64,000 nt of DNA from Siphonodentalium dalli. Taxonomy: Eukaryota; Mollusca; Scaphopoda; Gadilida; Siphonodentaliidae. The stretch is taken from positions 157,813,152-157,877,151 of the forward strand of contig CP136066.1 in the NCBI GenBank assembly GCA_032622095.1, in the 5' to 3' direction. A model generated the notes under the pieces. That model was not told the DNA's origin and did no database searches. It worked only from the letters and a program-made list of their open reading frames with translations. Made by a program: the position numbers and the translations under genes. Of this stretch, positions 23,784 through 63,040 are shown in pieces; positions within the stretch are counted from its first letter, which is position 1; each line of letters begins with the position of its first letter.

Positions 23784-23879
23784 ACAATAATGCCCTAAAT
23801 AATCGCCTGAGAGCTTTCCGATGAATGGCAACAAGCCATATTTCTGACTTAATCCGGAAATATTACCCATAATTCTGCC
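23784..23879. mobile_element. PAL-TA fragment with left-arm deletion
   Basis: ACAATAATGCCCTAAATAAT is joined directly to GAGAGCTTTCCGATGAATGG. The rest of the left arm and the right terminus are missing. Confidence 0.75.
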
Positions 23880-23924
23880 AACCTCATCTACATTTACATC
23901 TACTTGATACTCCATCGCCCTCAA

Positions 23925-24130
23925 TGTGCTGAGGATTATGTGGAGGTCCAGGTGCACACACCGAGTCGTGTACACGGGTCAGCCATTAATGTCGGCGCCC
24001 GATTGGACACCGTACTGCACCCACAACAACATACCTGGACAAGTGTCGCAATGGGAGGAAGTCGGCATTTTGCATTCGAATCTTTATTCAGTGATCTCGA
24101 ATGAGACTTTTCAGCCTGACAAACTTGGTA
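23925..24130 (-). mobile_element. SINE body, 3' part of a split SINE
   Basis: This aligns with 35808-36010 in opposite orientation (GGGTCAGCCATTAATGTC, GGCATTTTGCATTCG, GTGATCTCGAATGAGACTTT, CAGCCTGACAAACTTGG). The 5' part lies 3.6 kb away at 27753-27862, beyond the TA-flanked element. The copy at 35771 shows the uninterrupted join, so this is one SINE on the minus strand. Confidence 0.75.
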
Positions 24131-24429
24131 CCGTAAACCGGGGTAACTTGAGACAGTTTTTAAGGTATTTTAAAGCTAACTTGAAATAAATGTTTTGGAC
24201 CCTAGCCACATCACTTGACACTTCTCAAACAACCTCTCAGCTATTGATTTCTAATAGTTCTAACCTGTTGTAGCATTGTAGGTAGCAAAAATTGTGGCCC
24301 GAACAAGTGTCTCAAGTCACCATCCAGATCCATCAAGATCCATCCAGCCCGTTCCGTGCATTCAGTGCTACGGGTCAAAGTTCTGTCTGGAGTAGCATTC
24401 GTTTAAATATTCATGAATTCCATATTGCT

Positions 24430-25022
24430 ACATCAAATAATTTAGGCTTAGGGTTATAATATAGGGCTCATGTTGAACTAGTGAAAGGGTTATGGTGTTC
24501 TTTAGGTTAGGGCACCCTTTAGGGTCAAATCTCACCCCCTCGATCACAGGTTTAGATCCCGGGTTAGGATTCATCCTTTATGGACAAAGCGTATCACCTC
24601 GATCACAGATTTATGGTTAGAGCTCACACTTTAAGGGCAAATACCACCCGCGCAATCACAGGTTTAGGGAAAGGTGCTCATCCTTTATGGGCAAAGCCTA
24701 TCCCCTCGATCACTGGTTTATGGTTAGGGCTCATGTTGATCTAGTGAAAGGGTTAGGGTTTGCTTTAGGGTTAGGTCACCCTTTAGGGTCAAATCCCATC
24801 CCCTCGATCACAGGTTTAGGGTTCACCCCTTATGGGCAAATTCCACCCCTCGATTACAGGCTATGGCTCATCCTTTATGGTCAAAGCGTATCCCCTCGAT
24901 CACAGGTTTAGGTTTAGGGCTCATCTTGAACTAGGTAAAGGCTTAGGGTTTCCTTTTGGGTTAGGGCACCCTTTAGGGTCAATGCCCATCACCTCAATCA
25001 CATGGTTAGGGTTAGGGTTATC
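24430..25022. repeat. TTAGGG-like degenerate array, forward
   Basis: Roughly 120-200-bp units contain CCCTCGATCACAGGTTTAGG, GTTAGGG runs and CACCCTTTAGGGTCAAATCC. This is not a pure telomere array, but TTAGGG/TTTAGGG words dominate. An inverted counterpart lies at 27031-27177. Confidence 0.8.
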
Positions 25023-25372
25023 GGAGATACGAGTCTTGGAGCCATGGACCCATGGCTACATAACGAAGATACAAGTCTCTGAGCCATGGAGCCATACGAA
25101 AGTATGTCATGGTTCCAAACCTCATATCTTCGTTATGGCTACATGACTCCAAGACTTGTTATGGAGCCATGGCTCCACGACTCGAAGACTTGTGTCTCCG
25201 ATATAATGAAGATACGAGTCTATGAGCCATGTAGCCTAAGTGTATGTCATGGCTCCAAACGAGATCTTCGTTATGGAGCCATGGCTCCAAGAATTGTATC
25301 TCCGTTATGGAGCCATGGCTCCAAGAATCATATCTTCGTTATGGAGAGATGGCTCCAAGACTTGTATCTCCT
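25023..25372. repeat. GGAGCCATGGCTCC palindromic repeats, left block
   Basis: The unit is GGAGCCATGGCTCC plus AAGA(C/A)TTGTATCTCCGTTAT, with the word TATC(T/C)(C/T)CGTTATGGAGCC between units. GGAGCCATGGCTCC is itself a perfect palindrome. Ends abruptly at the LINE. Confidence 0.8.
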
Positions 25373-26733
25373 TGATTTAAACAATATTTATTTGCCCCAA
25401 TATTACATTTGTGATGAACAACATTTAGATGATGGAAACATGAGTAGAATAGAAAAGGGGAAGAGGATTTAGCAGCAAGCAGATATGTGCTTTTGTTGAG
25501 CTATCTCCTCAGACAAGTAGAAAAATTGTAGAAATCAAGAAAGATCGAGCGAATGGCAAGTGGCCGAGTTAGAGAAACAATAGGTTTAAGAAGTGATGGT
25601 ATATTAATATTATGATGTACAGACGAGTTTACAATAAGTGTTGAAATGATAAATAAGCTTATGTGGATAATAAAGAGAGGGGTGTATTCACAAGGAATAC
25701 GAGACAGAGATATATATGAAAATAAATGTGGAAACAAAACTAAATATGAAAACTCCATGGGTTATCGTTGCTATGCCGTTGAATTGTTAGTGTATTGTTT
25801 GAAACGACCGCTTTTTTGAATGCAGTATTGCATAGCTCTGAATATTTCATTATTTATTTCAGATGATAGCAATGGTATGCCTTTGAGTAGGATCTTGGTA
25901 GTTAAGAAAGTCGGGTCAATATTTGAGAATGAGTCAGACCTGAGTTGAGTATATCTTTGACAGAATAATAGAAAGTGTTCAGCGCTTTCTACATCCCCGC
26001 ATACACATTTGTCACAATCGCGTAAATGGTTTTCACGAAGGTCACGATTTAGATTACTACACTTGAGTCTTAAGCGGGCATGCAATATTTGGGTTTCGCG
26101 ATTTAAACAATAATCAAAATGTTGAACTTTCAATGAATTTCTCCGTTTTTCTATATCTAGTCGTGACTTGAATATCTCTAAAGACTTTGCGCTTTTATTT
26201 TCGGGTGTAAAATCATTCCACAGGCGAGTAGCAGATGGAAGGAAGGTGTTCATATATGCCGAGTTGTCAGCTTGCGGAGGTCTTAAGTCGTTTCTCCTAA
26301 AATTATATCTCTGGGAACCCGGGGTATCGGTGTTGATCATGTTGTATAAATAGGATGGTGATGATCTAACAAACATTTTATAAAACTGATGTAGTTTAAA
26401 TTTTTTTCTCCTTTCTGCTAATGTTTCCCACCCAAGTTCAGACAGAAGGTCGCTATTGTTAGTGCTACGCGTAGCTCCTGAAACAATCCTTGCTGCTTCA
26501 AATTGAATTTTTTCAAGTCGTGTGCTCAATTCACATGTACAATTGTCCCATACTGGTGCAGCATATTCTATGATTGGACGAATGTAAGAGAAATATATTT
26601 TTTTAAGGGTTTTTCTATTCAGCGAAAATCTATGCATTCGCATTATATTAATTTTCTTCCAAGCTCTATCAGTAATATCATCTATGTGGTCACCCCCATT
26701 TCGCTTGATTGTCAAATGTTAATCCTAAGTGCT
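25373..26733 (-). mobile_element. 5'-truncated non-LTR retrotransposon (LINE) fragment
   Basis: The minus-strand coding part is the C-terminal region of an ORF2 reverse transcriptase protein. From the truncation it reads HLGLTFDNQAKWG, then DHIDDITDRAWKKI, then RKTLKKIYFSYIRPIIEYAA-VWDN, the post-RT segment of Jockey/CR1/Rex-like elements. A C-terminal CVCGDVESAEHFLLFC cluster (CxC..H..C) follows. About 400 bp of 3' UTR ends near AATAAATATTGTTTAAATCA. It is inserted between two GGAGCC blocks. A one-base frameshift lies in the G5 run near 26695. Confidence 0.9.
25771..26715 (-). pseudogene. LINE ORF2 C-terminal fragment
   Basis: About 314 codons stay open, from near the frameshift to the stop at 25771-25773. 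The RT catalytic FADD-type motif is upstream of the truncation and absent. In the other frame the residues LGLTFDNQAKWG continue upstream to about 26730. The fragment cannot make an active enzyme. The long intact frame suggests a fairly recent insertion compared with its surroundings. Confidence 0.85.
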
Positions 26734-27030
26734 CCTTTATGGAGCCATGGCTCCACTGATACAAGACTTGTATCTTCGTTATGGAGCCATGGCTCAAAGA
26801 CTCGATTCTTCGTTATGGACCTATGGAGCCATATCGGAGCCACGAGTCTCAGAGCCATGGCTCCATTATGAAGATACGAGTCTTGGAGCCATACGAAAGT
26901 TTATGTAATGGCGCCATAATGGTGATGTATGTATCCGTGTAGCTGTTGCTTCGTGGCTTTATAGCACCTTGGCTCCATGACACGTATCTCCGTTATGGAT
27001 CCATGGCTCAATGCAAGACTCGTATCTGTT
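26734..27030. repeat. GGAGCCATGGCTCC repeats, right block
   Basis: Same unit as 25023-25372, more degenerate; includes CGTTATGGAGCCATGGCTC twice. Together the two blocks are one array split by the LINE. Confidence 0.75.
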
Positions 27031-27177
27031 ATATCCTAATCCTGTGATCGAGGGGATACGCTTTGCCGATAAAAGATGAGCCCTAACCCTAAACCTGTGA
27101 TCGAGGGGGTGGGCTTTGACCCTAAAGGGTGCTCCAACCCTAATTCAACATGAGCCCTAACCCTAAACATGTTATCG
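27031..27177. repeat. CCCTAA-like array, inverted
   Basis: GAGCCCTAACCCTAAACCTG, TGTGATCGAGGGG and GACCCTAAAGGGTG are the inverse of phrases in 24430-25022. With that block it forms a long interrupted inverted repeat. Confidence 0.75.
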
Positions 27178-27700
27178 TAGTACTTGCAGTCAGTCAGCTA
27201 CATGTAGATTATCATTCAATTTTACTTGTGCAACTTATCATGTGCATTAACTGAGATTACTGTAGTAGTTAGCAACTAAATAGCACATGTAGCCATATAG
27301 AGCATGTATGGGTCATATCCGGGGTGACTGTCTCAAGTATGTCTCAAGTATGTCGAAAATCATGTTTTTCTTAGAAAGCATAAAATATGTAACTACATAC
27401 ATAAAATGACAATCTGTTGACTCATCAGATATATATTTCTGGAGTCTTGGTCATATTCATCTCCATATAGTCCACATGGTGTATGTGGTGCAGTGAAAGT
27501 TTGCAAGTGGTCAAATTTTTGCGAAAACAAATCAATGAAATTCTCAGACCAGTTGCTCCATTTTTATTCAATTGCATCTCATTATTTATAGATTATTATC
27601 AAATAAATATATCTGTCATGATGTCATCAGAATAAATAAGACTTTAATATTTGAATGTAAGAACAATAGGGAATGATTATAGTGCCTGAAATATGGCTCC
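27178..27700. other. Interior of the 3.6-kb element, nothing recognised
   Basis: AT-rich. The subterminal motif GGGGTGACTGTCTCAAGTAT occurs near 27321. No coding frame. Confidence 0.4.
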
Positions 27701-27752
27701 ATCCTGTATTGTCTCAAGTCACCCCGGTGTCTCAAGTTACCCCGGTTTACGG

Positions 27753-27862
27753 TATCTGACCGAGTTCTGATTTTTGTCAGAATACCCTGACCAGGTTGCG
27801 ATCCCCGGTCCGATAGCACGAGAGACCAGTACGCTACCTCTCGGCTACCGACTTCCCTTTCG
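27753..27862 (-). mobile_element. tRNA-derived SINE head (5' part of split SINE)
   Basis: On the minus strand a Pol III A-box-like TAGCCGAGAGG (27847-27837) and a B-box-like GGGATCGCAACC (27805-27794) lie 31 bp apart, as in a tRNA-derived SINE head. TCAGGGTATTCTGAC-AAAATCAGAAC then runs into the insertion point. The body resumes at 24130. Confidence 0.7.
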
Positions 27863-27871
27863 GGTCGTTTC

Positions 27872-28132
27872 GATGGTATATCCTTCATGTAAGAATACTA
27901 GTCCAAAATTGACTATACATTGATTTGAATGTATATCTTTATTATCCCGTAGATTTTCGACTAGTAAGAATACACGAAACGACGAACCCCCTCCGATTTC
28001 TCCATATGTGTTAGAGTTAGGGTCAAGGGCGCTAGTGTTAGGGTTAGGGCTAGGGTTAGGGTTAGGATTAGGGTTAGGGCTAGTGTTAGTTCTAGAGTTA
28101 AGGTTAGTGTATTCTTATATGAAGGACATACC
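27872..28132. repeat. Fold-back with an internal TTAGGG-like tract
   Basis: ATATCCTTCATGTAAGAATA at the left and its inverse (TATTCTTATATGAAGGACAT) at the right. Between them 28013-28100 is GTTAGGGTTAGGGCTAGGGT-type, 10-12 telomere-like words. Confidence 0.75.
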
Positions 28133-35770: not shown

Positions 35771-36010
35771 TCAGGGTATTGTGACAAAAATCAGAACTTG
35801 GTCAGATGCCAAGTTTGTCAGGCTGAAAAGTCTCATTCGAGATCACTTGACAAAGATCCGAATGCAAAATGCCAACTTCCCCCCATTACATTTGTCCACG
35901 TTTGTTGTCATGGGTACAGTAGACTGTCTGATCGGGCATGGACATTAATGGCTGACCCATGTACACACCTTGGTGTGTGCATGTTAAAGAAAGCTACTGG
36001 AGTCACCACA
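35771..36010 (+). mobile_element. SINE body, head-less copy
   Basis: TCAGGGTATTGTGACAAAAA and CAGAACTTGGTCAGATGCC, then CAAGTTTGTCAGGCTGAAAA and onward, match in order the two halves at 27753-27790 and 24130-23925. The tRNA-like head is absent. This copy shows the uninterrupted arrangement of the split SINE. Confidence 0.7.
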
Positions 36011-51600: not shown

Positions 51601-54600
51601 CCGGGAAATAGCAAAAAGCAAATATTATTAGGTGTATTCTGGAGTGCAAACTGCCATGTGGCTTTAAAAAAATTGGTGCCAATATTATATACCATTAAAA
51701 AAACATTCCCTTCGTTCTACCTTTCATATTATTTTCTCCACAATTTTATATAAAAGAAGCACAGCAAAAGAGTTTCTGAACCAAATTCTCATTAACGGGT
51801 AGTTTCCTTAGGAAATGTTCAGAAAATAAGCTAAAACAAGAGATCGACTGTCGTCCGGTGCATACCCCCTAGTGGAATATCGCCTAGTGTGGGCATATCC
51901 ATACAAAATTTCATTGAGTTCCGAGCATTACTGTTCAAGTTATGAGCTGAACAGACATCGGATGGACCAAACAACCAACATTTCCAGATAAAGATGAATA
52001 ACTCTAGAATGGAAAAGCGGAACAGAACAATGGAACCCCCTATTGAATGTCCTCATAGCAGTGAACATCCATACCAAATTCCATTGAGATCCCAGCACAA
52101 TTGTTGAAGTTACAACATGAACAGACACCAGACGGACTTAAAAGCCAACATTTCCAGATGAACAAAGATGAATAACTCTAGAAAGGAAGAGCGGTGCAAA
52201 ACAATGGAACCCTCTTTTTGATTTCCTCATAGCAGTGAACATCCGTACCAAATTCCATTGAGATCCCAGCACAATTGTTGAAATTACGACATGAACAGAC
52301 ACCAGACAGACCAAAAAGCCAACATTTCCAGATAAACAAGATGAATAACTCTAGAATGGAAAATCAAAACAAAACGATGGAACCCTCTATTGAATGTCCT
52401 CATAGTAGTGAACATCCATACCAAATTTCATTGTGATACGAGCACTACTGTTCAAGTTATGACATGAACAGAAACCAGACGGACCAAAAATCCAACATTT
52501 CAAGATAAACAAAGATGAATAACTCTAGAATGGAAAATCCGAACAAAACGATGGAACCCTCTATTTAATGTCCTCATAGTTGTGAACATCCACACCAAAT
52601 TTGGTTGAGATCCCAGCACAACTGTTGAAGTTACGACATGAACAGACACCAGACAGACCAAAAAGCCACTATTTCCAGATAAACAAAGATGAATAACTCT
52701 AGAATGGAAAATCCGAACAAAACGATGGAAACCTCTATTTAATGTCCTCATAGTAGTGAACATCCATACCTAATTTCATTGAGATCCGAGCACTACTGTT
52801 CAAGTTATGACATGAACAGACATCGGACGGACGTACGGACGCATGGACGAACGCACGGCTAAACTGACGGACGGACGGACAGGTGCAAAACAGTATACCC
52901 CCCTTTTAAAAAAAATAAGGGAGTATAAAAATGACCTATGGGAACTCGGGGTTGCCGCTAGGGTGGCACAGGCTCAGAAAAACGGACCCGGTTTTTGGTG
53001 CCATATAAAACAAGAGATGGACTGTCGTCCGGTGCACACCCCCTCGATGCATACCGCCTAGTGTGGGCACATCTATAACTTATGATGGCTATACTCAGAC
53101 ATATGGACCCAGAAATCAGCATTTTCATATAAACAAAGATGAATAACTATAGAACAAAAAACCAAAACAAACATTTGAAAGTGCCATTAAATGTCCTCAT
53201 AGTGGTGAACATCCATACAAAATTTCATTGAGATCCGAGCATTACTGTTCAAGTTATGAGCTGAACAGACATCGGATGGACCAAACGGCCAACATTTCCA
53301 GATAAACAAAGATGAATAACTCTAGAATGGAAAAGCGGAACAGAACAATGTACCCCCTATTGAATGTCCTCATAGTAGTGAACATCCATACCAAATTCCA
53401 TTGAGATCCAAGCACAACTGTTGAAGTTACGACATGAACAGACACCAGACGGACCAAAAAGCCGACATTTCCAGATGAACAAAGATGAATAACTCTAGAA
53501 CGGAAAAGCGGAACAAAACGATGGAACCCTCTTTTCGATGTCCTCATAGTAGTGAACTTCCATACCAAATCCCATTGAGATCCCAGTACAACTGTTGAAG
53601 TTATGACATGAACAGACATCAGACGAAACAAAAAGCCAATATTTCCAGATGAACAAAGATGTATAACTCTAGAATGGAAAATCCGAACAAAACGATGGAA
53701 CCCTCCTTTTAATGTCCTCATAGTAGTGAACATCCATACCAAATTTCATTGAGATCCCAGCACAACTGTTCAAGTTATGAAATGAACAGACACCAAACGG
53801 ACCAAAAATCCAACATTTCAAGATAAACAAAGATGAATAACTCTAGAACGGAAAATCCGAGCAAAACGATGGAACCCTCTATTTATTGTCCTCATAGTTG
53901 TGAACATCCACACCAAATTTGGATGAGATCCCAGCACAACTGTTGAAGTTACGACATGAACAGACACCAGATGGACCAAAAAGCCACTATTTCCAGATAA
54001 ACAAAGATGAATAACTCTAGAATGGAAAATCCAAACAAAACGATGGAACCCTCTATTTAATGTCCTCATAATAGTGAACATCCATACCTAATGTCATTGA
54101 GATCCGAGCACTACTGTTAAAGTTATGACATGAACAGACATCGGACGTACGGACGGCACGATTGACGGACAGGTGCAAAACAGTATACCCCCCTTTTATT
54201 TTAAAAAGGGGGTATAAAAAAGTGGGTAAAGGGGCCCCCATGATTCAATGCAATCAAGAGTTGATTGTAAGTCCCAATGTGATTCTCAATATGATAATAA
54301 TTAAATCAATAGCTCCGGTTTTTAGATCTACCGTATAGAAACGATTACTATAGAACCCAGGAAAATAACCAGCCGATACTTCTGTCAAATCGGTCAATAT
54401 ATAAAAAAAAAAATACTTGCAGAAATAACAAGTAAATTCAGGGGATATATCAGTGAATGTGATCTTAAACTTCAGTGTTAAAAAGTATTCATGAAATGGT
54501 TTATTTCTTAAAATGAATTCTGAGAAAGACATATCATCCAATCCAAAATCACACGCTATGTTCCAGGATCTATAACTCTATATTTTTTTGATCGTGTGAC

Positions 54601-57600: not shown

Positions 57601-60600
57601 CATGGACGGGTTAAGTTTCCTTAAAAGCTAAGCAATAATTATTGAAAATTGTGAACGACATCTTGTGGTCATGAGTGAGCTCAGCAAACAAATACAGCAT
57701 ACAGTAATGCCCTAAATAATCGACTCCTTAACCACAAGCAGAATTATGGGTAATTTTTTAGGAATTAGTCGAAAATATGGCTTGTTGCCATTCATCAGAA
57801 AGCTCTGTGATGGCTTTCCGATGAATGGTAACAAGCCATATTTCCATTTAAATCCTGAAAAGTTACCCATAATTCTGCTGTGGTAAAGGAGTGGATTATT
57901 TAGGGCATCACTGTAGTAGTGTTCCATTTCATTTTGCAAGGTAGAACAGGTAGAACATAAATTTTTATAGCAAATTTAGTCATTTTTAAAGATGGATTAT
58001 CTCTTCATATAACAATTTCGAAATAGATTCGTGGGTATAAAATAATAAATTTTGAATTGAATACACATGTTTCGGAGATGCTTAACATTGATTTTATTTC
58101 CAATATCTTATTATAAAACGAGATGATTAAAAAATGGGAAACTTTATTGTTCTATTTTTAGAATAGACCATTCAGGGAATAGCATATAGCGATTAGGGTG
58201 TTCACATAGCTACGCTCCAAACGTCAAATGTCCTAGATTTATTATTTGTATTGTTTTATGCCATAGTTATAAGCAATGAAAGTGTCAATGACACTGTAGC
58301 TCAAATTGGAAAGGGAATAATTTAATGTATTACAGTCAATGGAGCGATTAGGAATGTGGAAAGTTGAATGTCTAATACTAGTTTATAGACATGAAGAGAA
58401 AAGTAAAATCCAAGATGGCTGCTGGCGGCTATGTTTTCGGCCGAATGACCCCAAAATGAGTCGTTCCCATCTACATGTCATTATTAACATTCATGACAAA
58501 TTTTATGACGATCAGACTAAAGGTACGACCTGTAGCCCTTGCTAAAGAATTTAGTCATACAAAGAGCAAAATCCAAGATGGCTGCTGGCGACCATGTTTT
58601 CGGCCGAATGACCCCAAAATTACTCGTTCCCATCTACATGTCATTGTTAACATCCATGACAAGTTTTATGATGATCAGACTAAAGGTACGACCTGTAGCC
58701 CGTACTAAAGAATTTAGTCATACAAAGAGTAAAATCCAAGATGGCTGCTGGCGGCCATGTTTTTTGGCCAAATGACCCCAAAAGTACTCATTCCAATCTA
58801 CATGTCAATATTAACATCCATGACAAATTTCATGATGATCAGATGAACAGTACGAACTGTGGCCTGTGCTAATGGATTAAATTTTTAAATCCAAGATGGC
58901 TGCTGGCGGCCATGTTTTTTGTCCGAATGACCTCAAAATGACTCGTTCCCATCTACATTCCAATTTCAACAGCCATGACAAATTTTATGATGATCAGACT
59001 AAATGTACGACCTGTAGCCCGTGCTAAAGGATTTAGTCATACAAAGAGTAAAATCTAAGATGGCTGCTGGCGACCATGTTTTTTGGCCGAATGACCCCAA
59101 ACTTACTCGTTCCCATCTACATGTCAATATTATCATCCATGACAAATTTCATGATGATCAGACAAACAGTACGACCTGTGGCCCGTGCTAATGGATTAAA
59201 TTTTGAAATCCAAGATGGCCACTGGCGGCCATGTTTTTTGTCCGAATGACCCCAAAATGACTCGTTCCCATCTACATTCCAATATCAACAGCCATGACAA
59301 ATTTTATGATGATCAGACTAAAAGTAGGACATGTAGCCCATGCTAAAGGATTTAGTCATACATAGAGTAAAATCCAAGATGGCTGCTGGCGACCATGTAT
59401 TTTGGCCGATTGACCCCAAAATTACTCCTTCCCATTTACATGTCATTGTTAATATCCATGACAAATTTTATGATGATCAGACTAAATGTACGACCTGTAG
59501 CCCGTGCTAAAGGATTTAGTCATACAAAGAGTAAAATCTAAGATGGCTGCTTGCGACCATATGTTTTTTGGCCGAATGACCCCAAAATTACTCGTTCCCA
59601 TCTACATGTCAATATTATCATCCATGACAAATTTCATGATGATCAGACAAACAGTATGACCTGTGGCCCGTGCTAATGGATTAAATTTTGAAATCCAAGA
59701 TGGCCATGTTTTTTGTCCGAATGACCCCAAAATGACTCGTTCCCATCTACATTCCAATATCAACAGCCATGAAAATTTTTATGATGATCAGACTAAAAGT
59801 AGGACATGTAGCCCGTGCTAAAGGATTTAGTCATACATAGAGTAAAATCCAAGATGGCTGCTGGCGACCATGTTTTTTGGCCGATTGACCCCAAAATTAC
59901 ACGTTCCCATTTACATGTCATTGTTAATATCCATGACAAATTTTATGATGATCAGAATAAAGGTACGACCTGCAGCCCGTGCTAAAGAATTTAGTCATAC
60001 AAAGAGTAAAATCCAAGATGGCTGCTGGTGGCCATGTTTTTTGGCCGAATGACCCCAAAATTACTTGTTCCCATCTACATGTCAATATTATCATCCATGA
60101 CAAATTTCATGATGATCAGACGAACAGTACGACCTGTGGCCCGTGCTAATGGATTAAATTTTGAAATCCAAGATGGCAGCTGGCGGCCATGTATTTTGTC
60201 CGAATTACCCCAAAATGACTCGTTCCCATCTACATGTCATTATTAACATTCATGACAAATTTTATGATGATCAGACTAAAGGTACGACCTGTAGCCCGTG
60301 CTAAAGGATTTACTCATACAAAGAGTAAAATCCAAGATGGCTGCTGGCGGCCATGTTTTTTGGCCGAATGACCCCAAAATTACTCGTTCCCATCTACATG
60401 TCATTATTAACATTCTTGACAAATTTTATGATGATCAGACTAAAAGTACGACCTGTAGCACGTGCTAAAGAATTTAGTCATACAAAGAGTAAAATCCAAG
60501 ATGGCTGCTGGCGGCCATGTTTTTGGGCCAAATGACCCCAAAATTACTCGTTCCCATCTACATGTCAATATTAACATCCATGACAAATTTCATGATGATC

Positions 60601-63040
60601 AGACAAACAGTACGGCCTGTAACCCGTGCTAATGGATTGAATTTTGAAATCCAAGATGGCCACTGGCGGCCATGTTTATTTTCCGAATGACCCCAAAATT
60701 AATCATTCTGGTCTAAATGTTGATGTCAACAGCTATGACAAATTTCATAATGATCCGACCAAAGGTACGACCTGTAGCCTGCATTGTTGACGCCTTACGT
60801 ACACACGCACACACTGACACACGGACGATGGACGACAAAGCCATGGCAATAGCTCAAACTTTACAAAGTAAAGTTGATCTAATAATGAGTCTATTAAATT
60901 AACATTTATTTGTTACAAAATTACACAATAAAATTTCTGGTCTATTGTTTGTTAGCTAAACAACCACACGTTTTTAGACCAGAAAATATTCGAAATATAA
61001 TCAATATAAATCGAAAGAAGCATTTCCGGACAGGAGTCTTCGATTCATATCTAATATTTTATACCCGGTATCTATATAACACATATTTACAAAGAGATAG
61101 ACGATCTTTAAAATTGCAATCAGCAATGCATAAAACTCTTTACTGACAATTTAAGCTTCACTACCATGCTTACCTGAATTTCTTTCTTCCACACAATCGA
61201 ATGTGACATGCTGTCCCATAGAAACAGTCTCTTGTCAGATCCACAGGTTAGAAACTGGTGCTGCGTTGGATGTGCAGCCACTCCCCACAACTCATCAATA
61301 TGACCCTGTCAAGCGACGATAAGAGGAATCAAAACCCAATAGCAGTGAATATTACAGGCTTCAAAATATGGTGCAGAATGAGGTCCCTGGTGAGTGAATT
61401 TAGTGAAGATACCCCGCAGAGTAGGCTAGCAGCACCAAATTCACCCTATGGGAACCTCATTCTGCATGGCCTCATCTGCTATGGGAGACAAAGACTCAGA
61501 TTGAAGTTCCCAAATGGTGAAATTGAATATTGTGATGTACACCCATTGGGAACCTCGATTATTCTATGTGTCATCTGCCAATTTGGGGATATAGATAAAC
61601 TAATCTAAATAGAAATAGAATCTATATGAAGAAGTTTCTGTAGAAATTTGATAATAAAGAAGCATTCCAGAAAAGATGAGGTCTCAGCAGAATGAGGTCA
61701 CCAGAGGGTAAATTTAGTGATGCTAGCCTGCTGCCCGAGAGAGCTTCACTAAATTCACCCTCTGGGAACCTCATTCTGCAAATGGCAGCACACAAAACCC
61801 AATAGCAGTGAATGTTTACAGGTCTCAAAATATGGTGCTGAACATTTGCAGAATGAGGTCCCTGGAGGGTGAATTTAGTGACTCTACCACGCACAGTAGG
61901 CTAGCATCACTAAATTCACATTCTTGGGACCTAATTCTGCTAAGTATCTGCGTAGGACTCATCTTCTCAGGAAAGTAGATTTATTATCAAATATTAAAAT
62001 AAAAAAAAAAAATTAGTTTCTTTTTCTTTTTAAGTTTAGTTTCTCTATATTCCCAAATTGGCAGATGACACAATGCACAATTGAGGTACCCAATGGGTGC
62101 AAATCAGCATCTTCTGGGAACTTAAATCTGAGTATAAGACTCCCATGGCAGATGAGACCACGCAGAATGAGGTCCCCAGAGGGTGAATTTAGTGATGCTT
62201 GCCTGCTGTGCAGTGAAATTTCCAACTGCACTCCCCCGCACCCTGAACCAGACCAAACTCCTAGGTTTGCAAAATTCAGTTTTAATGTTTAAAAGATAAA
62301 AATGTGCTGTAGGCCCTTTTGTGCCCGAAGGGAGTCTGTTTCAGTTAGTTGTAAATAAACTTATCCTAACCTATCCTGACATCAAAGATCCATGCATGGA
62401 CGATTGTGATTTTTGATTCCTTTTGGGAAACTGATCATTTTCGTGTCCATCATTATGATAACTGATTACCATAAATATTAAAAATGCATAATCCGAATTA
62501 ACGCTCGCAAATTACTATTTCCTTGGCTTCGGGGGTAAAAAATATTTGATTCGAGTCAAGGAACTCACCCATCAAAGCTCAGAGTGATCAGATATTGATG
62601 TTTGAAATCTATTATTTTTCACCACCGATAATTTTAAGTGGCCCAGTAAACAGCTGACGAGAAGTCGGTCTGGAACCAAATTGAGGATGAAAATGGATAA
62701 CTTTAAAATTAAGTGGCTTTTTTGTGTGTCAGATATTGACAAACCGGCAAACTTTCGTTGAACAAAAAGTTGATAAATAACAGGTTTTGGGCAATTTTAT
62801 ACTATAGTTGACTGTGGTTAGCATTATTTTTGGGCAAATACTCGATTCTGATAACTGAAGCAGCATTTCAAAAAATGTTGTTATTGTTGCAATCTGATGA
62901 TATGGGGACCATACCTGAACAATAGGATTGAACATGAGATCCACCGTTCCCTGCATAATACAGTTCTTAGTTGTTCCGACTAATACTAGGTTCCCTTTGC
63001 TTTGGCTGAGAGCTCTGACTGGACCATATTCCTCTGGAAG
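42513..63040 (-). CDS. EML-family (echinoderm microtubule-associated protein-like) gene, partial
   Basis: Seven exons, read from 63040 down to 42513, join in phase into 275 codons with no stop. EML proteins bind microtubules. They carry an N-terminal HELP motif and a tandem atypical propeller (TAPE) domain built from WD40-like repeats (family knowledge). The exons here cover the C-terminal propeller: GHIDELWGVAAHP, HPDGNMVVIGTQASRW, HTDGNEQ, YLAVGNRDNFVYI, GHSSYITHLDWS, NSGDYEVLYW, IWPEGADGTDVN, ADDFGKVNLYKYPC. The HELP-side exons lie right of the window. The closing '..HSSHV..GGKD..QW' repeat was not found on the left. The EML paralogue cannot be decided. Confidence 0.95.
42818..46085. mobile_element. 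PRL-A pearl-like element split by a CACTG transposon
   Basis: Start palindrome AAAGTGTCAATGACACTTTA, then TTACAGTCAATGGAGCGATT. Core units run to 43441 and resume at 45702 (TTATATGGCTGAATTACCCC, CCATGTTTT-type phase conserved). The right end is lost at the Helitron-like element. It lies in the intron between exons 6 and 7. Confidence 0.8.
43442..45701. mobile_element. 2.26-kb CACTG-ended transposon with TIRs of about 570 bp
   Basis: Ends CACTGTCGGATACCCGTTTA and its inverse, flanked by ATGTT at 43437-43441 and 45702-45706. Neighbouring PRL-A units confirm that ATGTT was single before insertion. The inverted repeats run to about 44015 and 45110 (GCATAAAAATGACACGCCGA inverted near 45150). Each TIR carries CCAAGATGGCGGCGCC, then AAACGGTAAGTG. 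CACTG ends with a 5-bp duplication resemble Transib-like elements (tentative). The interior of about 1.1 kb has no recognised transposase; 44650-44930 is GC-richer. Confidence 0.8.
46092..46743. mobile_element. Probable non-autonomous Helitron
   Basis: Begins TCTACTATATATTTTGAGAA (TC start) and ends GCCAGTGGCGGGCTAACCTG then CTAGT (CTRR-T end), the pattern of Helitron termini. No inverted ends or target duplication. The interior repeats TCCTTTATAGA(A/C)TC and ACCGATTGAG(A/C)(C/T)C at two places 360 bp apart. Confidence 0.5.
46777..46947. mobile_element. PAL-TTAA, 29 nt from EML exon 6
   Basis: TTAACCCTTCCATGACCGGA .. CATGTCATGACAGGGTTA, single-hairpin form. It ends 29 nt inside the intron from the donor of exon 6. 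Confidence 0.85.
46977..47069 (-). CDS. EML exon 6 of 7 seen
   Basis: 93 bp. Acceptor TGATTTTGCAG before 47069; donor GTGAGT after 46977. It encodes GTNGKQVTAPNVIKDVKWAT then QNCTLNFNTA; two bases complete Trp (TGG) from exon 5 and the last G starts the glycine of exon 7. The 'KDVKWATQNCTL' segment matches the variable linker strand between EML blades. Confidence 0.95.
47070..47856. repeat. Intron; dispersed repeat at about 47570-47770
   Basis: CCCATTCAGTTATAAAAGTA, GAATGGTCTATTATTCTGGA, GAAGCAGACAACAGACA and an inverted pair (ATAAGTTCAACAAATGATCT / AGGTTGAACTTATTAT). Ends with AAAGTGTTAAC. Related pieces occur at 2085, 4684, 5870, 15430, 16230, 40535, 48240 and 63890, so this is a common element whose full form I cannot define. 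Confidence 0.55.
47857..48090. mobile_element. PAL-TTAA element, two hairpins
   Basis: TTAA at both ends (47857-47860, 48087-48090). The first-hairpin start is shortened (GAGCTGTGCATTCTG). Confidence 0.85.
48091..48592. other. Intron; C run and dispersed-repeat piece
   Basis: C run 48097-48121. TGGGCTGGATATGATG is repeated in tandem near 48192-48227. 48240-48310 is an inverted piece of the 47590 repeat. No exon. Confidence 0.45.
48593..48768. mobile_element. PAL-TA, right inner arm deleted
   Basis: The full left arm to GGAAAGCTCTC is joined to AGACTAAATCCTGAAAAATT. Termini and TA flanks intact. Confidence 0.9.
49042..49129 (-). CDS. EML exon 5 of 7 seen
   Basis: 88 bp. Acceptor TTTTTTTTCAG before 49129; donor GTAAGT after 49042. 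It encodes GHSSYITHLDWSSDSEYLCT then NSGDYEVLY plus T (first base of Trp). GHS..LDWS..NSGDYE..YW is a hallmark EML segment. Confidence 0.97.
49244..49545. mobile_element. BIP element, truncated right
   Basis: The left hairpin (ATAGTGTGTCTGTAATTTTC..) and the outer spacer are present. The middle of the spacer (CACCTCGATTATG part) is missing, and the right hairpin stops at GGATGAATTTGGTGATAC. It begins 115 nt upstream of exon 5's acceptor. Confidence 0.8.
49546..49981. other. Intron sequence, nothing recognised
   Basis: Part of the intron between exons 4 and 5. AT-rich, no matched repeat. Confidence 0.5.
49982..50079 (-). CDS. EML exon 4 of 7 seen
   Basis: 98 bp. Acceptor TGTATTTTCAG before 50079; donor GTAAGT after 49982. 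Two bases complete Asp from exon 3, then GKYLAVGNRDNFVYIHHVSE and GGHKYSKAGRCS. SPDGKYLAVG..DNFVYI is a typical WD-like strand pair. Confidence 0.97.
50145..50974. mobile_element. PAL-TTAA element with nested fold-back
   Basis: AACCCCTCCATGACTGGAGC at the left, AGCTCCTGTCATGAAAGGGTT then TTAA (50971-50974) at the right. Both family hairpins are present (to 50345). The right terminal segment is displaced by an insertion at 50357-50940. It starts 66 nt upstream of exon 4's acceptor. Confidence 0.85.
50357..50940. mobile_element. Nested fold-back element
   Basis: ATAGAACCGCATGAGTGTCT (50360) is mirrored at 50522, with stems of about 75 bp around GGGACGCAGTCCC. Next, TTTTTATTACATATCT (near 50524) is mirrored by AGATATGTAATAAAAA at about 50925-50939. 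The host element's phrase CTTTAAT/..ACACCAGCGCAGC is interrupted precisely. Confidence 0.75.
50975..51831. other. Intron; dispersed repeat at 51507-51670
   Basis: 51507-51670 pairs with 8945-9110 (ATTATTAGGTGTATTCTGGA, CTGCCATGTGGCTTTAAAA). The rest is unassigned. The ORF at 51096-51284 has no domain. Confidence 0.5.
51832..52928. mobile_element. PRL-B pearl-like element, copy 1
   Basis: Starts AACAAGAGATCGACTGTCGT. Five core units of about 174 bp (AAGATGAATAACTCTAGAAT at 51992, 52166, 52339, 52513 and 52687 approximately). Then GGACGGACGTACGGACGCAT and further ACGG-type words, then a hairpin-like end (CAGTATACCCCCCTTTT.. ..AAGGGAGTATA). This matches the published organisation of bivalve pearl elements: left end, about 160-bp tandem core, ACGG-type microsatellite, right end. 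Confidence 0.8.
53005..54219. mobile_element. PRL-B pearl-like element, copy 2
   Basis: Starts AACAAGAGATGGACTGTCGT. Six units of about 174 bp, then GGACGTACGGACGG and GATTGACGGACAGG, then CAGTATACCCCCCTTTTATT with mirrored AAAAGGGGGTATA. Same orientation as copy 1, 77 bp away. Confidence 0.8.
54220..54775. other. Intron sequence, nothing recognised
   Basis: AT-rich; no matched repeat or exon. Confidence 0.45.
54776..54871. repeat. 31-bp minisatellite (TTAACTGGTATGCAGGATT..)
   Basis: Three units of TTAACTGGTATGCAGGATTT plus GACCCTTTCAG. Further units are stranded at 55066-55097 and 55485-55505, between and after two TTAA insertions, because each unit contains GTTAAC. Confidence 0.85.
54872..55075. 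mobile_element. PAL-TTAA element in minisatellite
   Basis: TTAACCCTTTCATGATTGGA at the left, AAGCTCCAGTCATGGAAC at the right. Inserted at the GTTAAC of the third minisatellite unit. Confidence 0.8.
55098..55486. mobile_element. TTAA element with CCCTTTACCCAACA ends
   Basis: TTAA at 55098-55101 and 55483-55486. Ends CCCTTTACCCAACA are mirrored. Two hairpins (centre TCGACCATAGGTCGCC and inverse) flank an AT-rich middle that matches 7990 and 22800. Right subterminal TTTTGGCCGGTTT repeat. Confidence 0.85.
55521..56035. mobile_element. hAT-like MITE 41 nt from EML exon 3
   Basis: Ends CAGGGTTCGCGCTG and CAGCGCGGACCCTG with a perfect 8-bp duplication GTGGTGAC (55513-55520, 56036-56043). Subterminal TGGCAAA/TTTGGCAA words. 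It is inverted relative to 56302-57149, judging from subterminal sequence. Confidence 0.95.
56076..56232 (-). CDS. EML exon 3 of 7 seen
   Basis: 157 bp. Acceptor TCTTTTCCCACAG before 56232; donor GTAAGT after 56076. It encodes DAAHCCCFHPDGNMVVIGTQ, ASRWIVLDLSTHEIVHVHTD, GNEQIEVVEYSP plus G. The 'FHPDG..VIGT..RW.VLD....HTDGNEQ' pattern is diagnostic of EML C-terminal blades. hAT-like MITEs lie 41 nt downstream and 70 nt upstream. Confidence 0.98.
56302..57149. mobile_element. hAT-like MITE 70 nt upstream of EML exon 3
   Basis: Ends CAGGGTTCACGCTG and CAGCGTGAACCCAG. Flanking 8-mers GAGTTTGG and GTGTTCGG (6 of 8 match). Interior AT-rich with TTGGCCAAA(T/C)T words. Confidence 0.85.
57180..57318. 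mobile_element. BIP hairpin, short form
   Basis: AGAATGAGGTCTCCAGAGGG with its inverse, then AAAAGTCTGACACACTATAT. Only the right outer terminus is present. Confidence 0.8.
57367..57614. mobile_element. PAL-TTAA element, two hairpins
   Basis: TTAA at 57367 and 57611. Left CGGTTTCATGACGTGAGCTG, right AAGCTCCAGTCATGGACGGG. Confidence 0.85.
57701..57914. mobile_element. PAL-TA palindrome, full length
   Basis: TACAGTAATG .. CATCACTGTA. Several arm mismatches (CACAAGCAG, GAATTAGTCG), so it is an older copy. Confidence 0.9.
57915..58274. other. Intron sequence, nothing recognised
   Basis: AT-rich; no exon or matched repeat. Confidence 0.45.
58275..60880. mobile_element. PRL-A pearl-like element, complete, about 15 units
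   Basis: Starts AATGAAAGTGTCAATGACAC with TTACAGTCAATGGAGCGATT. 'AAGATGGC' then recurs near 58410, 58573, 58736, 58890, 59054, 59207, 59374, 59538, 59693, 59847, 60014, 60166, 60332, 60496 and 60651, mean spacing 160 bp. Units are of two types, about 164 bp (..AGTCATACAAAGAGTAAAAT) and about 154 bp (..TGGATTAAATTTTGAAATCC). It ends with ACACACGCACACAC / ACGGACGATGGACG and the hairpin AACTTTACAAAGTAAAGTT. Confidence 0.9.
61174..61305 (-). CDS. EML exon 2 of 7 seen
   Basis: 132 bp, phase 0 at both ends. Acceptor GCTTGACAG before 61305; donor GTAAGC after 61174. It encodes GHIDELWGVAAHPTQHQFLT, CGSDKRLFLWDSMSHSIVWK, KEIQ. 'GH.DELWG.A.HP....FLTCG.D..L.LWD' is the best-conserved EML blade. Confidence 0.98.
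61330..61792. mobile_element. BIP subtype 2 with long flanking direct repeat
   Basis: Hairpins and spacer as at 33466. Flanks AAAACCCAATAGCAGTGAAT and ACAGG(C/T)(T/C)TCAAAATATGG occur both before it (61330-61371) and after it (61793-61836). Confidence 0.8.
61793..62230. mobile_element. BIP subtype 2, second copy, right end truncated
   Basis: GCAGAATGAGGTCCCTGGAG hairpin, a spacer in inverse order (TATTCCCAAATTGGCAGATG, ACCCAATGGGTGCA) and half of the second hairpin, ending near GCCTGCTGTGCAGTGAAATT. An A run lies at 62002-62013. Confidence 0.75.
62231..62914. other. Intron sequence, nothing recognised
   Basis: Contains TTGTAAATAAACTTATCCTA-like words (62348). No exon or matched repeat. Confidence 0.45.
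62915..63040 (-). CDS. EML exon 1 of 7 seen
   Basis: 126 bp, phase 0. Acceptor TGTCATTTTCAG before 63040; donor GTATGG after 62915. It encodes LPEEYGPVRALSQSKGNLVL, VGTTKNCIMQGTVDLMFNPI, VQ. 'PE.YG.(V/I)RA......LVGT..N.I..GT' is the EML segment preceding the GHxDELWG blade. More 5' exons must lie beyond 64000, since no HELP or first-propeller sequence is seen. Confidence 0.95.

Follow-up and report, generated by a model that had tools for sequence, protein, structure and literature searches.

In most pogo families, TA target duplications accompany terminal inverted repeats (TIRs) of up to 40 bp (PMC7386202). Tetris, a transposon of Drosophila virilis whose autonomous partner is unknown, has TIRs of up to 1,735 bp that enclose tandem repeats, and its target duplications are 8-10 bp long (PMC4079207). 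Here, we describe a 3.6-kb element located at positions 24131-27752 of the window, the whole stretch of 64,000 nucleotides that was analysed (C6:157813152-157877151, in a genome of 2.23 Gb and 9 contigs). The element is very probably a non-autonomous DNA transposon of the cut-and-paste kind, present here in decayed form and moved in trans, most likely by a transposase of the Tc1/mariner-pogo type. To the extent that literature text allows this to be checked, it belongs to a new family of non-autonomous TA-target TIR transposons, which may already be catalogued in Repbase or Dfam; text searches of papers for the end sequence gave no match.

The element has perfect 25-bp inverted ends with a TA outside both, in agreement with the first-pass annotation of this DNA. 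The left TIR, CCGTAAACCGGGGTAACTTGAGACA, occupies 24131-24155 on the forward strand, and the right TIR, at 27728-27752 on the reverse strand, is its exact reverse complement over 25 of 25 positions. The two copies of the TA target duplication are found at 24129-24130 and 27753-27754, while uninterrupted copies of the SINE in which the element resides have one TA only. The 16-bp end core is repeated in tandem at 27710-27725 (minus strand, GGGGTGACTTGAGACA), and additional copies of this core, in decayed form, can be seen near 27329-27348.

The first-pass annotation had proposed a genome search with the 25-bp end for TA-flanked copies. With up to two mismatches allowed, CCGTAAACCGGGGTAACTTGAGACA gave 147 matches, of which 74 are in forward and 73 in reverse orientation, compared with 0 for the reversed control pattern; the possibility that no other locus carries these ends is thereby excluded. 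Among the matches listed, there are 31 facing pairs in which both ends are exact, most of them 2.6-2.9 kb apart. In seven more facing pairs, one end or both differ by a single base, which brings the count to at least 38 pairs overall, and the family has more than 70 copies in the 2.2-Gb genome. For comparison, 16 regions were retrieved and 9 elements were assembled from overlapping loci. A consensus of 2,844 bp was built from 14 full copies, which have a mean divergence of 1.26% from the consensus and of 2.3% from one another. The family has been mobilised repeatedly and is recently active.

Both flanks are TA in 22 of the 25 sampled copies (chance ~1e-40). The three copies that lack a perfect TA pair have an extra C on the left (L001), TA and TG as flanks (L017), or no TA (L032). 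The base preceding the TA is G in 20 of 22 copies, and the base following it is C in 17 of 22. The preferred target is GTAC, which is exact in 15 of 22 cases; 37 of 44 half sites agree with it, against a background near 0.18. A 4-bp duplication of GTAC, in which the outer C and G would count as target, was rejected because, in the window copy, restoration of the SINE gives GGTATC as the target, and because GTAC is absent from 7 of the 22 targets. All seven copies at non-GTAC targets still start with CC and finish with GG.

No coding capacity is evident in the consensus, in which the longest stop-free frame has 110 codons, compared with a mean of 102 in shuffles. Because the family lacks coding capacity, we infer that it moves in trans. 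The transposase that acts on it most likely belongs to the Tc1/mariner-pogo (IS630-Tc1-mariner) group; it would bind the 25-bp ends as well as those copies of the 16-bp core GGGGTRACTTGAGACA that lie further in. The element would then be excised and reinserted at a TA, preferably within GTAC, with duplication of the TA. As in the Tc1/mariner-pogo group, the TA is duplicated (22 of 25 copies, with one TA in the empty site) and the TIRs are short (25 bp, perfect). Pogo is the leading guess for the transposase. Both the TA and the shortness of the ends are as published for pogo (PMC7386202), the genome has many pogo-type DDE_1 matches, and one intact pogo-like element (L077) also starts with TA-CCGTAAA and has a DDE_1 transposase and near-identical copies.

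This pogo-like element, the only intact one examined, is 2.66 kb long and corresponds to positions ~433-3098 of C6:133913900-133918400. Its transposase has the domains DDE_1 and HTH_Tnp_Tc5. At least 8 further copies of the protein, with 98-100% identity, are present in the genome, so the L077 family was recently active. Its end, TA-CCGTAAATTTCGGTGTATAAGTCGC, matches the family end only in the first seven bases (CCGTAAA) plus a GG motif. The two have the TA flanks and the terminal CCGTAAA in common, but the remaining part of the terminal repeat differs; in the search for an autonomous partner, the L077 family was set aside as one with different ends. With only the first seven bases matching, the likeness is suggestive and not proof.

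The first-pass annotation had also recommended looking for a long copy that encodes a transposase. None was found among the four long pairs of 4.7-9.8 kb (L031, 7.4 kb; L032, 6.2 kb; L033, 9.8 kb; L034, 4.7 kb), in which no transposase open reading frame (ORF) was recognised by a Pfam scan of the L033 ORFs and of three L031 ORFs, or by comparison of 33 pogo-type ORFs with all four. Of these, L031 corresponds to the duplicate of the window locus and carries two additional insertions, and L033 represents a related element that holds different inserts. In genome searches with Pfam DDE_1 and DDE_3, all listed matches are more than a few kb away from any listed end (150 of 415 DDE_1 candidates were scored), and the same applies to the pogo-like relatives of the L077 protein. 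The family end pattern had no match in the 33 pogo-type loci. Four points stand against the preferred explanation: no transposase-bearing copy with the family ends was found in these searches, the likeness to the L077 end is confined to the first seven bases and the GG motif, 3 of the 25 copies do not have a perfect TA pair, and a length of 2.8 kb with a large foldback core exceeds that of typical miniature elements.

The transposase could possibly, though doubtfully, come from a TA-duplicating superfamily other than pogo, such as mariner/Tc1 proper, ISL2EU or another, and the anatomy and the cut-and-paste movement would then be unchanged. TA duplication alone cannot separate these superfamilies, and the partner was not found among the listed transposase matches. 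Against this, the sole intact TA-type element examined that starts with CCGTAAA has a pogo-type DDE_1 transposase.

The end core GGGGTRACTTGAGACA is present six times in the consensus, at positions 10, 178, 200, 2434, 2802 and 2820. Two of the six lie in the terminal repeats and a third is in tandem next to the right one; those near 200 form a facing pair, and the remaining copy is that at 2434. Judging from other transposons, the inner copies could be extra transposase sites. The interior of the consensus comprises ~53-bp repeats with TTTAGGGTTAGGG and, at the centre, a palindromic minisatellite built from GGAGCCATGGCTCC units; the ~53-bp kind also recurs there as a shorter, inverted block. 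These blocks, which were at first described as mirror images, are instead inverted repeats, that is, reverse complements, and they are present in the family consensus. The central 560 nt fold with -187.8 kcal/mol, whereas shuffles give -69.9 +/- 4.5 (z = -26).

In genome searches with either of the minisatellites, the listed matches are in or close to family copies, few places excepted. The payload is therefore, as far as tested, DNA of the family. Capture of a satellite was considered as its origin and set aside to the same extent, as the scored matches to both minisatellites are mostly in or near family copies. Matches at C1:75028050, C4:234770053, C2:166556967 and C1:137257635 are the exceptions. 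The unusual cargo noticed in the first-pass annotation is thus real: it is noncoding, strongly foldback and essentially confined to the family. This hairpin-rich minisatellite cargo would be passenger DNA, grown by slippage or repair. It is improbable that the ends, the GTAC target and the inner cores belong to an undescribed transposase lineage and that the self-complementary minisatellite core, far from passive, is maintained by selection because it serves transposition, perhaps by way of folding or spacing.

Still more improbable is a foldback element of the Galileo/Tetris kind, in which the internal inverted tandem repeats would be functional parts of very long terminal repeats. The strong self-complementarity of the central block is what such an element would show, and its tandem repeats are oppositely oriented, as in Tetris (PMC4079207). 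However, the terminal repeats are just 25 bp long and the tandem repeats are internal, the unique subterminal stretches of the two sides are not alike, and no end core was found inside the minisatellite. The target duplication has 2 bp, compared with 8-10 bp in Tetris, and the family has neither long terminal repeats with tandem repeats nor a duplication of 7-10 bp. A non-autonomous cut-and-paste transposon with a passenger minisatellite remains the preferred reading. As in MITEs and other non-autonomous TIR elements, coding capacity is absent, TIRs are present and the copies are uniform. The consensus of 2,844 bp is above the strict MITE size (< ~1 kb), and a related family of 1.09 kb (L046) has the same ends.

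This smaller form belongs to a group with variant ends. Members whose end carries the variant with GGGGTGACTTGAGACA have the outer few hundred bases in common with the main family, and their interiors differ; they include the 1.09-kb form (L046 and relatives), the 9.8-kb L033, and L032 and L034. The G-variant end gave 22 matches and led, together with relaxed end patterns, to related noncoding families of the L046 type. These searches also led to another class, which starts with CCGTAAAATGGGGTGACTTTGGACA, has ~45 matches and is one-ended: a facing partner was sought within a few kb, and none is near. Two of its loci, L095 and L096, have 586 bp in common, at 88%. On the chromosome-scale contig C9 (C9:113957997-113984260), five 5' ends of the family are spaced ~6.5 kb apart, which suggests a tandem array. 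The only unit of it that was read (L093) consists of consensus 2-1200 followed by ~5.3 kb of other DNA. At L083 and L084 (C5:67487610-67491067), two element starts that are nearly identical point the same way, 3,007 bp apart, and each is broken soon past the end by a hairpin-like sequence.

The window copy corresponds to three stretches of the consensus. The 5' end, at 24131-24321 on the forward strand, corresponds to consensus 1-191 (94.8%), and it closes with an inner copy of the end core, in decayed form, near 24308. It is followed by a junction at 24322-24335, where consensus 192-745 is missing, and by consensus 746-1512 at 24336-25095 (forward strand, 93.8%), which includes the ~53-bp repeats with TTTAGGGTTAGGG. 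The left part of the palindromic minisatellite of GGAGCCATGGCTCC, made of 34/42-bp units, is found at 25030-25376. Segment 25377-26735, with approximate end points, is a fragment of a 5'-truncated non-LTR retrotransposon (LINE) on the minus strand. The 3' part of the element, at 26748-27752 on the forward strand, corresponds to consensus 1851-2844 (95.0%) and holds the right part of the minisatellite and an inverted TTAGGG-like block at 27035-27177.

The LINE fragment, located between the minisatellite halves, has an open frame of 315 aa at 25774-26718 on the minus strand. This frame has an identity of 45% over 288 aa to an ORF with an RVT_1 (reverse-transcriptase) domain at L096. The first-pass annotation had counted the LINE in the make-up of the element, and here it did not hold: the 2,844-bp family consensus has no LINE. 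It is a later insertion into the window copy and not a component of the family. Both the LINE and the internal deletion damaged this copy at a later time; because consensus 192-745 is missing from it, the window copy does not represent the type.

The locus as a whole, again between the same SINE flanks, is found a second time in inverted orientation 3.3 Mb away (L031, C6:161136847-161144361), at 98.8-98.9% identity. Since this duplicate shares the locus including the LINE, both the element and the LINE are older than the duplication. The duplicate has two extra pieces, of ~2.0 kb and ~1.8 kb, at window positions 26150 and 27472-27480, which are most simply later insertions. Elsewhere in the window, a degenerate TTAGGG-like tandem repeat is found at 28008-28107, outside the element and ~150 bp past the SINE head. 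Long tandem arrays are located at 51897-54147 and 58402-60779, with periods of ~174 bp and ~164/483 bp. A 70-bp sequence like that at ~23805-23880 is repeated at many places between 8450 and 57878, often as adjacent inverted pairs, as if these were the ends of a small palindromic element.

The SINE that the element interrupts has its tRNA-like head at 27755-27862 and its body at 23925-24130, both on the minus strand. The head is tRNA-like by A/B-box-like sequence only, as ARAGORN reported zero tRNA genes in the window. A head-less SINE copy at 35771-35981 on the forward strand, unbroken across the insertion point, is a homologous empty site. The SINE was restored by joining the left flank, including its terminal TA, to the right flank, from which the TA had been removed, giving a query of 293 bp. 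Aligned to 35771-35981, the joined flanks are identical at 184 of 214 positions (86% over 214 bp) with no gap at the junction. Both the interruption of the SINE and the unbroken join in the head-less copy, as proposed in the first-pass annotation, are thus confirmed. In the genome, 40 copies were scored out of 3,027 first-look candidates, and all 40 are 95-97% identical to the query, from positions 1-8 to 282-283 of 293. Because the restoration is gap-free with one TA, and because near-full-length copies exist in the genome, the two halves are one SINE in which one TA was duplicated on insertion. The element at 24131-27752 is an insertion into this single SINE. A second clean empty site turned up fortuitously for L045, the joined flanks of which match an uninterrupted paralogue in L014 (88% over 59 bp). 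That the SINE halves are unrelated copies, or that the locus is an assembly artefact, is hardly credible: we found no point in its support, the genome alignments of the joined flanks, gap-free and nearly of full length, rule out independent halves, and an artefact is opposed by the inverted duplicate of the same insertion and by the more than 70 further copies.

Taken alone, the family is one more in a well-populated class; the kind of element is ordinary and the cargo is odd. It is a clear-cut example of recent spread by a large transposon that encodes no protein and bears a hairpin-forming minisatellite; its empty sites are precise, and its preference for GTAC is marked. The transposase, if found, would make a defined pair of donor and enzyme. 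Like pogo-type non-autonomous TIR elements, the family has a TA duplication, short perfect TIRs, no ORF and many near-identical copies, as well as deletion derivatives and related families with common ends. It differs from them in being large for a passive derivative (2.84 kb), in its marked GTAC preference, in the inner copies of the end core and in the palindromic minisatellite cargo. With Tetris, it shares the character of a noncoding DNA transposon with opposed internal tandem repeats and modular, rearranged copies (PMC4079207); Tetris repeats also form satellite arrays (PMC4079207), and none were seen for this family. A bacterial MITE, of Porphyromonas gingivalis, is reported to be a TIR element with a minisatellite as well (PMC4596501). 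The foldback payload thus has partial precedents in Tetris (PMC4079207) and in minisatellite-bearing MITEs (PMC4596501).
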